Assembly (NCBI GenBank): GCA_021850485.1
Contig: JAJZLY010000009.1
Location: 1 to 64,000 of the forward strand
Direction: 5' to 3'
DNA: 64,000 bases
Source of the DNA: Bacillota bacterium
GTDB lineage: Bacteria > Bacillota > Sulfobacillia > JAJZYS01 > JAJZLH01
Made by a program: the position numbers and the translations under genes. Positions 24,163 to 43,852 of the stretch are shown one piece after another (the first letter of the stretch is position 1; every line of letters begins with the position of its first letter). The notes under the pieces are model-generated. The model was not told where the DNA came from. It ran no database searches and saw nothing but the letters and a program-made list of their open reading frames with translations.

Positions 24163-24374
24163 GCAGACTAGAGCCCTGCCGTGTGCGTGTCTCCCTAGCG
24201 TTCGAGCCCAAATCGACGACAAGGGAGCCCACTTCTCCGGGCGGCGAGAGAAACTGTGCAATGCATGGGACTCGGTAACCATCTGGGAGGGCACCCACCT
24301 GCAATTGCAGGTTCTGAACCGGTCGGGATACGGCATGGTGGGGCAACGGATTTTGGGGGCTCGCCGGAGCCCCC
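24163..24374 (+). ncRNA. ssrS: Probable 6S RNA
   Basis: 6S RNA mimics an open promoter and binds housekeeping RNA polymerase. The segment folds as a rod: closing stem GCCC/GGGC (24173 and 24341) and TGCCGT/ACGGCA (24177 and 24330); a large central bubble; an apical stem GAGCCC/GGG-CTC (24204 and 24267); and, on the 3' side of the bubble, the small hairpin ACCTGC-AATT-GCAGGT (24297-24312), a typical 6S feature. It sits between aspS and the next gene, as in Bacillus. The ends are inferred from the promoter and the final hairpin. The length, about 212 bases, is slightly long. No covariance search was run. Confidence 0.75.
24355..24374 (+). terminator. 3' hairpin of the 6S-like RNA
   Basis: GGGGGCTC, loop GCCG and GAGCCCCC form a perfect 8-base stem preceded by TTTT. 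No T-run follows. It probably marks the RNA 3' end before the threonine aldolase gene. Confidence 0.55.
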
Positions 24375-40794: not shown

Positions 40795-41520
40795 ATGGTG
40801 GATCAAGTGGCGAGATGGGGCTGGCTGGTCGCAACCGTGGCGGTGCTGGCAATGGGCGGGATAATCCTTGTGCGGGGAGGCGGTACCGGGCCGCCGCCAG
40901 CGATCACCGAAATTGGCACCAGCACGGTTCAGGCCTCGCCGGACACGGCCGTGGTCCAGCTCGGCGTGAACAGTGTGGGTGCCAGCGCCGAAAGCGCCAT
41001 CACCCACAATGATACCCTGATGGCGGCGGTGGAAAAGGCCATTGAGCAACTGGGACTTCCGGCATCGGATCTCCAGACCATCAGCTACAACCTGTATCCG
41101 CAGTATGGCGGCCAGGGCAAGGCTCAGGCGGGTGGCGCGCCGACCATCACCGGCTACAACGTCTCCGATACATTACAGGTCACGACCAGCAGGCTGCAAC
41201 TGGTCGGCCAGGTGCTCTCTGTCGGCATCGCCAGCGGCGCCAACAGCGTTCAAAACGTCCAGTACGAAGTGTTGAACCAAAACACGGCGCTGAGCCGGGC
41301 CGAAGGTGAGGCGATCGCCCAAGCCAAGGCCCAGGCGCAAACGGCGGCGTCCGCCATGGGCAAGGCGTTGGGGTCGGTGCTGTCGGTCGAGGAGATCGCT
41401 CCCAGCGCGATCGTGCCCTATGGCGTGCAGTACAACCCGGCCGCCAGCGGAGGCTCGCCGGTCTTGGCCGGCACGCAGCCAGTGTCGGTCACGGTCAAGG
41501 TGGTGTTCGCGGTCCGGTGA
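40795..41520 (+). CDS. SIMPL-domain (DUF541) exported protein
   Basis: A 241-residue protein with an N-terminal membrane anchor or signal helix (about residues 8-28) and a SIMPL domain: GTSTVQASPDTAVVQLGVNSVGASAE, then AIEQLGLPASDLQTISYNLYPQY-type and GYNVSDTLQV segments, as in the BP26/OMP28 family (shown here as separate short motifs). Ring-forming periplasmic or surface proteins of unclear role. GAGGAG precedes ATG 40795. The 3' end overlaps the convergent yitT gene by 26 bases. Confidence 0.8.
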   Translation: MVDQVARWGWLVATVAVLAMGGIILVRGGGTGPPPAITEIGTSTVQASPDTAVVQLGVNSVGASAESAITHNDTLMAAVEKAIEQLGLPASDLQTISYNLYPQYGGQGKAQAGGAPTITGYNVSDTLQVTTSRLQLVGQVLSVGIASGANSVQNVQYEVLNQNTALSRAEGEAIAQAKAQAQTAASAMGKALGSVLSVEEIAPSAIVPYGVQYNPAASGGSPVLAGTQPVSVTVKVVFAVR

Positions 41521-42442
41521 CTTCTTGGTCGGTGGCTTGAGAGCGCCGGCGCAGGCCGGGCTCAAACGGCATGAACCCCTCCCCCAACACCTCGTGGGCG
41601 TGGTGGATGATCAAGAAGGCGCCAGGGTCGATGCCGACCACCAGAGACTTGAGCCGCACGGTCTCCAGCCGAGAGACTGCGATCAGCAACACCGGCCGCT
41701 CCTCCTTGGAGTACATGCCCTGGCCCTGCAGGGCGGTCACCCCTCGGCCCAGCTCGGCCATCACCGCCTCGGCGATCTCGTCAGGATGCACAGAGACGAC
41801 CAGGGCCACGCGTTGCACGGCCAGGCCGTCGATCAGGAAATCGATGATCCGGCTGCCGACGAACAACGCCAGCAGGGAGTACATGGCCGGCTGCAGCCCC
41901 ATCACCACGGCAAACAGGGCGATCACCAAGGCGTCGGCGCCCAAGAGGCCGACCCCAAGCGGCAGATCCAGGTAACGCCGCAGCAGCCTGGCCAAAAAGT
42001 CCGTGCCGCCGGTCGAGCCACCCATCCTGAAGATCAATCCGACGCCAGCGCCGGACAGCAGCCCGCCATAGACGGCGGCCAGCAGCTGATCGTGGACCAC
42101 CGGATGGATCGGCAAGAAGGTCAGGGCCAGTGAGAAGAGCACGGTGCCGATGACCGTCCGGACCACGAACCTGGGCCCGATCGCCACCCAGGACAGGGCA
42201 ACTAGGGGCAAGTTCAGGAGCAATAACGTCGGCCCGACCGGGAGATGGAAGACGTCGTAGAGCAAGATGGCGATGCCTGTAAGACCGCCGTCAATCAGGT
42301 GGTTGGGGATCAGAAAGAAGTTCAACCCGACCGCACCGATCACGGCGCCCAGCACCATGCCGAGCGCCGACTCCATTCTGATTAGCCGCCCGGGGCTGGC
42401 CGCTTGGTTGATCGCCGCCTTCTCCTCCTTCCTTAGGCGCAA
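41495..42442 (-). CDS. YitT-family (DUF161/DUF2179) membrane protein
   Basis: Up to 315 residues with five or six membrane helices in the first 190 residues. Family marks are NHLIDGGLTGIA and MGGSTGGTDFLA, and a C-terminal soluble DUF2179 domain (GRGVTALQGQGMYS, then IDPGAFLII). Function unknown; transport is suspected. The start is uncertain: TTG 42442 lies inside a large hairpin, the best SD (GGAAGGAGGAG) lies just downstream of it, and the first ATG is 42376. Confidence 0.88.
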   Translation of the reverse strand: MRLRKEEKAAINQAASPGRLIRMESALGMVLGAVIGAVGLNFFLIPNHLIDGGLTGIAILLYDVFHLPVGPTLLLLNLPLVALSWVAIGPRFVVRTVIGTVLFSLALTFLPIHPVVHDQLLAAVYGGLLSGAGVGLIFRMGGSTGGTDFLARLLRRYLDLPLGVGLLGADALVIALFAVVMGLQPAMYSLLALFVGSRIIDFLIDGLAVQRVALVVSVHPDEIAEAVMAELGRGVTALQGQGMYSKEERPVLLIAVSRLETVRLKSLVVGIDPGAFLIIHHAHEVLGEGFMPFEPGLRRRSQATDQEVTGPRTPP

Positions 42443-42475
42443 GGCCCTGCACGCGTCCGCGTGCAGGGCCTTGCG
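42438..42475 (-). terminator. 18-bp perfect inverted repeat before yitT
   Basis: Arms at 42438-42455 and 42458-42475 are perfect complements (core CAAGGCCCTGCACGCG) with 2 bases between. It lies between the zinc-ribbon gene and yitT on the minus strand and reaches the yitT start. It is a probable terminator or attenuator, with no T-run. Confidence 0.6.
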
Positions 42476-42502: not shown

Positions 42503-42811
42503 TCACACCGGCTGAGGTGGTTCTTCCAGGGCATAACTGCCAAAGGCATAGGTCAGGATGTACGGTCGCCCGTTGCAATGGTAGACAGTGCCCTCTGGGG
42601 TTCCGTGCACAATGTCCACCAACATCTCGGTGCCTGGGCAGCTGACCATCTGGATCCACGTCCAGTGCAGTTGGCCGTTTGTCTCGAGCAGGCGGAACAA
42701 GATGCCGGCGCAGTCCGGACACTCGACCAGGTCGTTGGCCTTGGCGTCAGCCGGTAGCGGGATGGTTCGCCCGCAGTCCGGGCAGATCAGCAGGTCCTCT
42801 GCAGGTGCCAT
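42503..42811 (-). CDS. Small zinc-ribbon protein, unknown function
   Basis: A 102-residue protein. The first half holds a zinc ribbon (CPDCG near residue 10 and CPDC near residue 30). The second half has two more cysteines (VSCPG and YHCNG) and aromatic residues. I do not recognise a family. ATG 42811 lies one base after the stop of the selenocysteine glutaredoxin gene, so the two are co-translated, which suggests a shared redox or metal role. A GTG start at 42835 is possible. Confidence 0.65.
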   Translation of the reverse strand: MAPAEDLLICPDCGRTIPLPADAKANDLVECPDCAGILFRLLETNGQLHWTWIQMVSCPGTEMLVDIVHGTPEGTVYHCNGRPYILTYAFGSYALEEPPQPV

Positions 42812-42812
42812 G

Positions 42813-43058
42813 TCACTTGAGCCCGAGCAATTCACTCACTTTGCCACGGTTGAAGCCTCTCAGCACCGTGCTGCCGATCACAATCACCGGCGTCCCCCGG
42901 ACGCCGCCAGTATGCGTCAGGAGTTCGTCAATCGCTCCCGGGTCTTCCACAACGTCACGTCCGACGAAGGGCACCCCCTGCGACTTCAAGAACTCCATCG
43001 CTTGATGGCAGGAACCTCAGCCCGGTGAATGGTAGACGGTCACCGCTGGATAGGCCAT
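42813..43058 (-). CDS. Selenocysteine-containing glutaredoxin-like protein (UGSC)
   Basis: From ATG 43058, which has GGAGGAGG 7-8 bases upstream, the frame reads MAYPAVTVYHSPG, then TGA at 43019-43017, then GSCHQAMEFLKSQG and the rest of a glutaredoxin: VRGTPVIVIG (the cis-Pro motif, near residue 55) and LRGFNRGKVSELLGL. TGA sits exactly at the first Cys of the CxxC site, giving UxxC at codon 14 of 81. Reading through is needed for the N-terminal strand and active site. A SECIS-like hairpin follows, and selB is at 185. Glutaredoxin-like selenoproteins are a known bacterial class. A gene finder would report only the fragment from 42998. Confidence 0.85.
42977..43012 (-). promoter_or_regulatory. 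Putative bacterial SECIS element
   Basis: Just 3' of the UGA, CCTGC (43012-43008) pairs with GCAGG (42981-42977), and TCAAG (43005-43001) with CTTGA (42990-42986). The 10-base apical loop starts with CG, 17 bases after the UGA. The loop size, distance and early loop G agree with the published general rules for bacterial SECIS elements as I know them. A shorter alternative stem, CCATC/GATGG, also exists. Confidence 0.6.
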
Positions 43059-43080
43059 GCAAACCACCTCCTCCAAGGTG

Positions 43081-43086
43081 ATTGTA
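43081..43086 (-). promoter_or_regulatory. -10 candidate for the selenoprotein operon
   Basis: On the minus strand TACAAT lies 22 bases before the ATG at 43058. No convincing -35 is visible. Confidence 0.35.
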
Positions 43087-43141: not shown

Positions 43142-43852
43142 ATGTCCGTGTGGGTGCGAGAGGCCGGGCCGCTGGTCAACACTGCGGCTGCGCTCGCCGG
43201 AACCCTGCTCGGGCTGATGCTGAGACGGATCCCGCCTGCCCTGCAAGAGGGCGTGACCAAGGCCATGGCCCTGGCTGTGATTGCGATTGGCCTGTCGCTG
43301 GCACTGGCGCATCTGGATCCGGTACTGCTCACCGCGTCAGCGGTGCTCGGTATGCTGATCGGTGAACTGACGCACATCCAAGAGGGATTCGACCGGGCCG
43401 GTGAATGGCTCAAGCGCATCTTGCACTCGGACGAGAGCCGGTTCGGCGAGGGGGCGGTCCTGGCCACTGTCGTCTGGTGCGTCGGTCCGCTGGCCATCAT
43501 CGGAGCAATCGACAGTGGGCTGCGGGGCCAAAATGCGATCTTGGACGCCAAGTCAGTCTTGGACGGCGTCTCGGCGATTTTTTTCGCCTCGACCTTGGGC
43601 ATCGGGGTGATCGTCGGCGTCGTTGCCCTGCTTTTCTACGAGGGCGGGATCGCCCTGGTGGCGACCGTGGCTGCGAGCCTGCTGACAGCGGCCTACATCT
43701 CGGCCATCTCCATGGTCGGTGGCGTGATCGTTCTGGCCATTGGCGTGAACATGCTGGGGATTTCCCGGATGAAGGTTGCCAATCTATTGCCGGCCCTGGT
43801 GGTGGCACTGGTGATCACCTGGCTGAAGGTGGCATTGCACCTACCGCTGTGA
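43142..43852 (+). CDS. DUF554 (YdfK-like) membrane protein
   Basis: A 236-residue protein with about seven membrane helices. Family marks: NTAAALAGTLLGLMLRR at the N-terminus, the KAMALAVIAIGLSLAL helix, GMLIGELTHIQ, GEGAVLATVVWCVGPLAIIGAI, and the C-terminal GVNMLGI-KVANLLPAL. Function unknown. GGAGG lies before ATG 43142, and the gene is divergent from the selenoprotein operon. Confidence 0.9.
   Translation: MSVWVREAGPLVNTAAALAGTLLGLMLRRIPPALQEGVTKAMALAVIAIGLSLALAHLDPVLLTASAVLGMLIGELTHIQEGFDRAGEWLKRILHSDESRFGEGAVLATVVWCVGPLAIIGAIDSGLRGQNAILDAKSVLDGVSAIFFASTLGIGVIVGVVALLFYEGGIALVATVAASLLTAAYISAISMVGGVIVLAIGVNMLGISRMKVANLLPALVVALVITWLKVALHLPL

Follow-up and report, generated by a model that had tools for sequence, protein, structure and literature searches.

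The window, by which we mean the whole stretch of 64,000 nucleotides analysed here, contains on its minus strand a short gene for a predicted glutaredoxin with an in-frame TGA at codon 14. This gene lies between genes for a small zinc-ribbon-like protein and a membrane protein, and a gene for a selenocysteine (Sec)-specific elongation factor is found in the same window:

42813-43058, minus strand: predicted Sec-glutaredoxin gene with the motif U14-G-S-C17; 81 residues, Sec at 14; coordinates include the TGA stop
43017-43019, minus strand: in-frame TGA, codon 14, proposed Sec codon at the catalytic N-terminal CxxC position; read directly, with TGA or Cys at this column in all aligned relatives
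43008-43010, minus strand: TGC, codon 17, resolving Cys of UxxC; invariant in alignment A1
42885-42893, minus strand: Thr56-Pro57-Val58, TPV cis-Pro loop; P57 at least 90% conserved in alignment A1
43066-43074, minus strand: GGAGGAGGT, Shine-Dalgarno-like site 7 nt before ATG 43058; read directly
43081-43086, minus strand: TACAAT, -10-like hexamer upstream of the start codon; read directly, in all three congeneric genomes
42975-43016, minus strand: expected bSECIS stretch, first 14 codons past the TGA; weak candidate hairpin with apical loop GGA
42503-42811, minus strand: small zinc-ribbon-like protein of 102 aa that begins directly behind the glutaredoxin stop; order kept in both congeners
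41495-42442, minus strand: YitT/DUF2179 membrane protein; the gene that comes next downstream in all three congeners
43142-43852, plus strand: DUF554 membrane protein, divergent neighbour; divergent also in the congener locus L055
212-2038, plus strand: selB, Sec-specific elongation factor (region matched); 353 bits, cut-off 242

Read directly on the minus strand, the frame that opens at ATG 43058 gives, with read-through of the TGA, a product of 81 residues, MAYPAVTVYHSPG-U-GSCHQAMEFLKSQGVPFVGRDVVEDPGAIDELLTHTGGVRGTPVIVIGSTVLRGFNRGKVSELLGLK-stop, and is terminated by a second TGA at 42815-42813. The original prediction had proposed this start with a good Shine-Dalgarno sequence, and indeed the strong ribosome-binding site GGAGGAGGT is located 7 nt before the ATG; its AGGAGGTGG occupies the same position in the two congeners. 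A consensus promoter scan upstream of the gene did not return a full sigma-70 site. As had also been predicted, the TGA at 43019-43017 is codon 14 and coincides with the first Cys of the CxxC motif (UGSC). ORF calling without read-through yields the frame 42998-42813 alone, and this 61-residue product lacks both the first strand and the active site, a loss that had been anticipated. One might argue that this shorter protein, initiated at ATG 42998, is the real gene product and that the upstream frame is a leader peptide ending at the TGA. The internal ATG exists, and several close homologues share Met21. However, Met21 is not conserved, with Ala or Gln found around this position in the homologues L027, L029 and L031, the upstream 12 codons, which specify the first strand, show conservation at the protein level, and the strong ribosome site belongs to ATG 43058 rather than to ATG 42998. 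The resulting product would be devoid of strand 1 and of both active-site residues, and we regard initiation at the internal ATG as very unlikely.

The read-through product has the features of a complete glutaredoxin. With Sec written as Cys, residues 6-64 match the Pfam glutaredoxin family PF00462 with an E-value of 7.5e-14 and 52.1 bits (gathering score 22.9), and the top PDB match by sequence is cGrx1 (7c10, E 1.1e-9). In the AlphaFold model of the 81 residues (mean pLDDT 90), the order beta-alpha-beta-alpha-beta-beta-alpha is complete and U14 immediately precedes helix 1 (residues 15-26). The claim that the frame runs on through the whole glutaredoxin fold, including TPVIV, is thus upheld by the Pfam match and the model. 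As expected for the glutaredoxin domain family, the alignment, the model and the Foldseek comparison show a thioredoxin fold with UxxC where helix 1 begins and with the proline of the TPV loop. The TPV cis-Pro loop of glutaredoxins faces the active site, its cis geometry being family knowledge. Foldseek retrieved the thioredoxin-like protein BC3987, A. fulgidus Grx-1, C. oremlandii cGrx1 and NrdH redoxins at TM scores of about 0.8, and the dithiol cGrx1 structure 7c10 matched with TM 0.83-0.85 and 38-39% identity.

The genome encodes the machinery required for Sec insertion. That selB lies in the same window had been noted originally and is confirmed by the match at 212-2038, and selA, selD and the gene for tRNA-Sec, for which a search had been suggested, were all found. 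The selA gene (487 bits) is located directly upstream of selD (L020, 57266-58189, 348 bits) on contig C20 of the genome G000, and a single tRNA-Sec with the anticodon TCA (UCA) scores 72.7 bits, all three being above their curated cut-offs. The selD gene itself contains an in-frame TGA and reads SGUGCK, a known Sec site of SelD, so that selD is a selenoprotein gene as well. In addition, a second glutaredoxin-like paralogue (L002, contig C25, 87118-87339) has a TGA at the first active-site position, where it reads MANVVIYTTST-U-PWCHVAKEFL with the motif UPWC.

Among 300 related genomes, the ten best-scoring loci all have TGA at the codon-14 column. These are the own genome, two congeners with 93% and 84% identity to the glutaredoxin, and G096, G110, G138, G122, G133, G151 and G107 with 48-57% identity, and the motif HxPG-U-xx-C is found in the translations of nearly all of them. 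In alignment A1, more distant homologues have either TGA or Cys at this column, and the second Cys of UxxC does not vary over the 28 aligned rows. In the tree, there are clusters of Sec forms and of Cys forms, but neither form makes up a single clade, and several deep forks are left open. A comparison with phage records gave no match. Between the own gene and that of the nearest congener, we counted 23 synonymous and 4 nonsynonymous codon changes, of which 2 and 0, respectively, fall into codons 2-13 and 21 and 4 into codons 15-80 (dN/dS 0.029/0.600, approximately 0.05); the other two pairs of the genus trio have dN/dS ratios of 0.15 and 0.26. This substitution pattern indicates that both sides of the TGA are protein-coding and constrained, and hence under purifying selection within the genus. 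The original prediction would have been undermined by relatives with a normal stop and no conserved upstream peptide, but the TGA and both of its flanks are kept.

These data also bear on the usual interpretation of a TGA within a frame, according to which the gene is a pseudogene, here a glutaredoxin whose active-site Cys codon has been lost to a nonsense mutation. There is an N-terminally truncated homologue, L034 in the genome G008, which would suit such a scenario. Against this, the TGA is retained in three species and ten divergent homologues, dN/dS is 0.05-0.26 over both sides of the TGA, no codon is altered other than the proposed Sec codon, and the full Sec machinery is present in the genome; decay of the gene is therefore highly improbable. 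Two homologues are noted here as observations in their own right. L034 (contig C53) has no first strand or active-site motif in any nearby frame and is possibly a decayed copy. In L050 (G137 contig C26, 24590-24814), TGA occupies the Sec position, the second Cys is replaced by Arg (URGR) and the TPV loop is disturbed to TAV; this gene may be decaying or may represent a monothiol form of the UXX-star type.

We also compared the occurrence of TGA-containing homologues with that of selA. Among the matches listed from the 300 related genomes, 63 genomes have a TGA-containing homologue and 59 only Cys homologues, and a strong selA match is present in 61 of the former and 28 of the latter (Fisher p 2e-10, a value that overstates the evidence as the genomes are related and the association is not phylogenetically independent). 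Family f9 contributes many of the Cys-only genomes without selA, and the position of the TGA was confirmed residue by residue for the fetched loci only. The two TGA genomes without a strong selA match are G110 and G139. G110 has a completeness of 97% and several TGA-containing homologues but no selA match, while its congener G122 has selA, and the absence of selA from G110 is probably due to an assembly gap. This distribution is relevant for the possibility that the TGA is decoded without Sec, either as another amino acid or through near-cognate read-through. A SECIS element is not shown for the glutaredoxin gene, which would fit such decoding; yet TGA is also an ordinary stop here, as it ends the glutaredoxin gene, and is thus not a general sense codon, and at the column in question it is almost confined to selA-bearing genomes, with Cys found otherwise. 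We give such Sec-independent decoding very little credence. That a TGC or TGT was turned into TGA by an error in sequencing or assembly is the least probable reading of all, since, although the window stems from a draft genome of 33 contigs, the identical TGA recurs in independent assemblies, namely those of two congeners (isolate YP3.bin27; MAS3.bin100) and seven other genomes.

Taken together, the gene at 43058-42813 on the minus strand very probably codes for a Sec-containing glutaredoxin. The original prediction of a glutaredoxin selenoprotein with a UGSC site is supported by the TGA in relatives, the conservation of its flanks and the Sec machinery. As judged from the sequence, this is one conserved glutaredoxin gene with TGA at the catalytic Cys position in a genome that encodes the whole bacterial Sec pathway.

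The published bSECIS model describes a loop of 3-9 nt in which a G comes early, a stem of 4 bp or more and a spacing of 16-37 nt, and some bacterial SECIS elements deviate from it (PMC13188914). Downstream of the TGA, the candidate hairpin TCAAG-C-GAT-GGA-GTT-CTTGA, whose loop lies 20 nt after the TGA, fits this model in form and spacing, but it is weak at -1.5 kcal/mol and is not well kept, the same pairing having +0.4 kcal/mol in the third species. Free folding of the 45 nt past the TGA gave a z near 0 for the glutaredoxin gene, and in a bSECIS-constrained hairpin search it was no better than synonymous-codon shuffles (z 0.23; 1.07 and 0.57 in the two congeners). The same search returned z values of -1.3 to -2.7 for L002, L038, L040 and L041; in the latter three, GTT stands near the apex of a strong hairpin, and the paralogue L002 has the stronger hairpin GCGAAAGAGTTTCTTTCGC 15 nt after its TGA. 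Near the TGA, we found no significant constraint on synonymous sites (p 0.05-0.76). A convincing SECIS hairpin was hence not shown for the glutaredoxin gene by free folding, constrained search or comparison within the genus. Because some bacterial SECIS elements fall outside the bSECIS model, we consider this result inconclusive rather than contrary. Most of the clade of TGA-bearing homologues is without a convincing SECIS hairpin whereas clear hairpins are seen in the sister UGSC/KEF clade, a difference that bears on the requirements of SelB.

UxxC glutaredoxin-like selenoproteins had been called an established class, and the literature agrees, with Sec-glutaredoxins carrying UxxC listed in published tables (PMC13188914, PMC9312934, PMC1088965) and cGrx1 of Clostridium oremlandii described as a native selenoprotein whose active site reads U/CPxC (PMC7642778). 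The finding is for this reason less novel than originally rated. The experimentally studied cGrx1 (PDB 7c10, 7c12, 7c13) resembles the protein described here in its size of approximately 80 aa, Sec as the first residue of U/CxxC, the resolving Cys and the fold (PMC7642778). The two proteins are 38-39% identical and differ in the motif, which is UPxC in cGrx1 and UGSC here, and in two residues inserted in the GG loop of the protein studied here. Ten UXXC glutaredoxins from the Sargasso Sea (COG0695) share the domain, the motif and the route of prediction; that set is marine and has predicted SECIS elements, whereas no convincing one is seen here (PMC1088965). The best NCBIfam profiles are the YruB family (TIGR02196) and Uxx-star (NF041212, NF041211, NF041114, NF047338), the latter named as (seleno)proteins. 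Although nearly the whole length is covered, the product scores under their curated cut-offs, with 66.2 bits for TIGR02196 (trusted cut-off 88.55) and 58.6 bits for NF041212 (trusted cut-off 66). The NrdH redoxins (TIGR02194; PDB 4hs1, 4f2i, 1h75) have the fold and CxxC in common but lack Sec, and the score for TIGR02194 is 34.7 bits (cut-off 85.75). As the product is under the cut-off of every model in the NCBIfam profile search, no family could be assigned by this route; it is a divergent relative of YruB and Uxx-star, which those models would probably fail to label as a selenoprotein. We also rejected membership in the separate selenoprotein family of UGSC-containing proteins (NF041046; PMC13188914), which is absent among the NCBIfam profile matches and shares only the motif letters by coincidence.

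On sequence grounds, we therefore place the protein as a divergent new member of the known Sec-glutaredoxin/Uxx-star/YruB kind. The HxPGU-xx-C clade, comprising the genus together with f47, f48 and f10, three families from its class, might even represent an undescribed Sec-redoxin subfamily with a conserved zinc-ribbon partner in the genus and an atypical, weak or absent SECIS hairpin, but we consider this doubtful. Sec-glutaredoxins are a known class but easily missed; with scores under all NCBIfam cut-offs, routine annotation likely leaves a 61-residue fragment without the active site, which makes the original label of an unannotated selenoprotein plausible. A new profile could be built from the clade of TGA-bearing homologues assembled here.

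We propose that SelA and SelD charge tRNA-Sec, which SelB would then deliver at codon 14, resulting in a product in which Sec14 is the attacking selenolate. On the analogy of cGrx1 and thiol redoxins, this residue could reduce a disulfide, a selenenylsulfide or another oxidised target and Cys17 could resolve the mixed intermediate. In the next step, the oxidised Se-S bond would be re-reduced, probably by a flavoprotein of the thioredoxin reductase type and not by glutathione. This is the likelier route because a thioredoxin reductase is present in the genome (358 bits), whereas no match was found to the gamma-glutamylcysteine ligase families PF04107 and PF04262 in this 97% complete genome. A classical glutathione-dependent glutaredoxin would call for a host that makes glutathione, which the search with these two families does not indicate here, but the host may still import glutathione from outside. 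NrdH redoxins are commonly reduced by thioredoxin reductase. As a default guess, we predict a role in general thiol-disulfide or peroxide defence.

In all three congeners, the glutaredoxin gene is followed by a gene for a zinc-ribbon-like protein of 102-103 aa and then by one for a YitT-type membrane protein. The zinc-ribbon ATG is located one base past the glutaredoxin stop in the window, and the two genes are therefore probably co-translated. We know of no functional link for the zinc-ribbon, YitT or DUF554 partners. An inverted repeat of 18 bp, CGCAAGGCCCTGCACGCG, is located between the zinc-ribbon and YitT genes at 42438-42475 of the window; it is perfect and its arms are 2 nt apart. At the corresponding place, L056 has a similar inverted repeat of 15 bp and L055 has none. 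Elsewhere in the window, a 6S RNA (RF00013, 71 bits) is located at 24170-24348.
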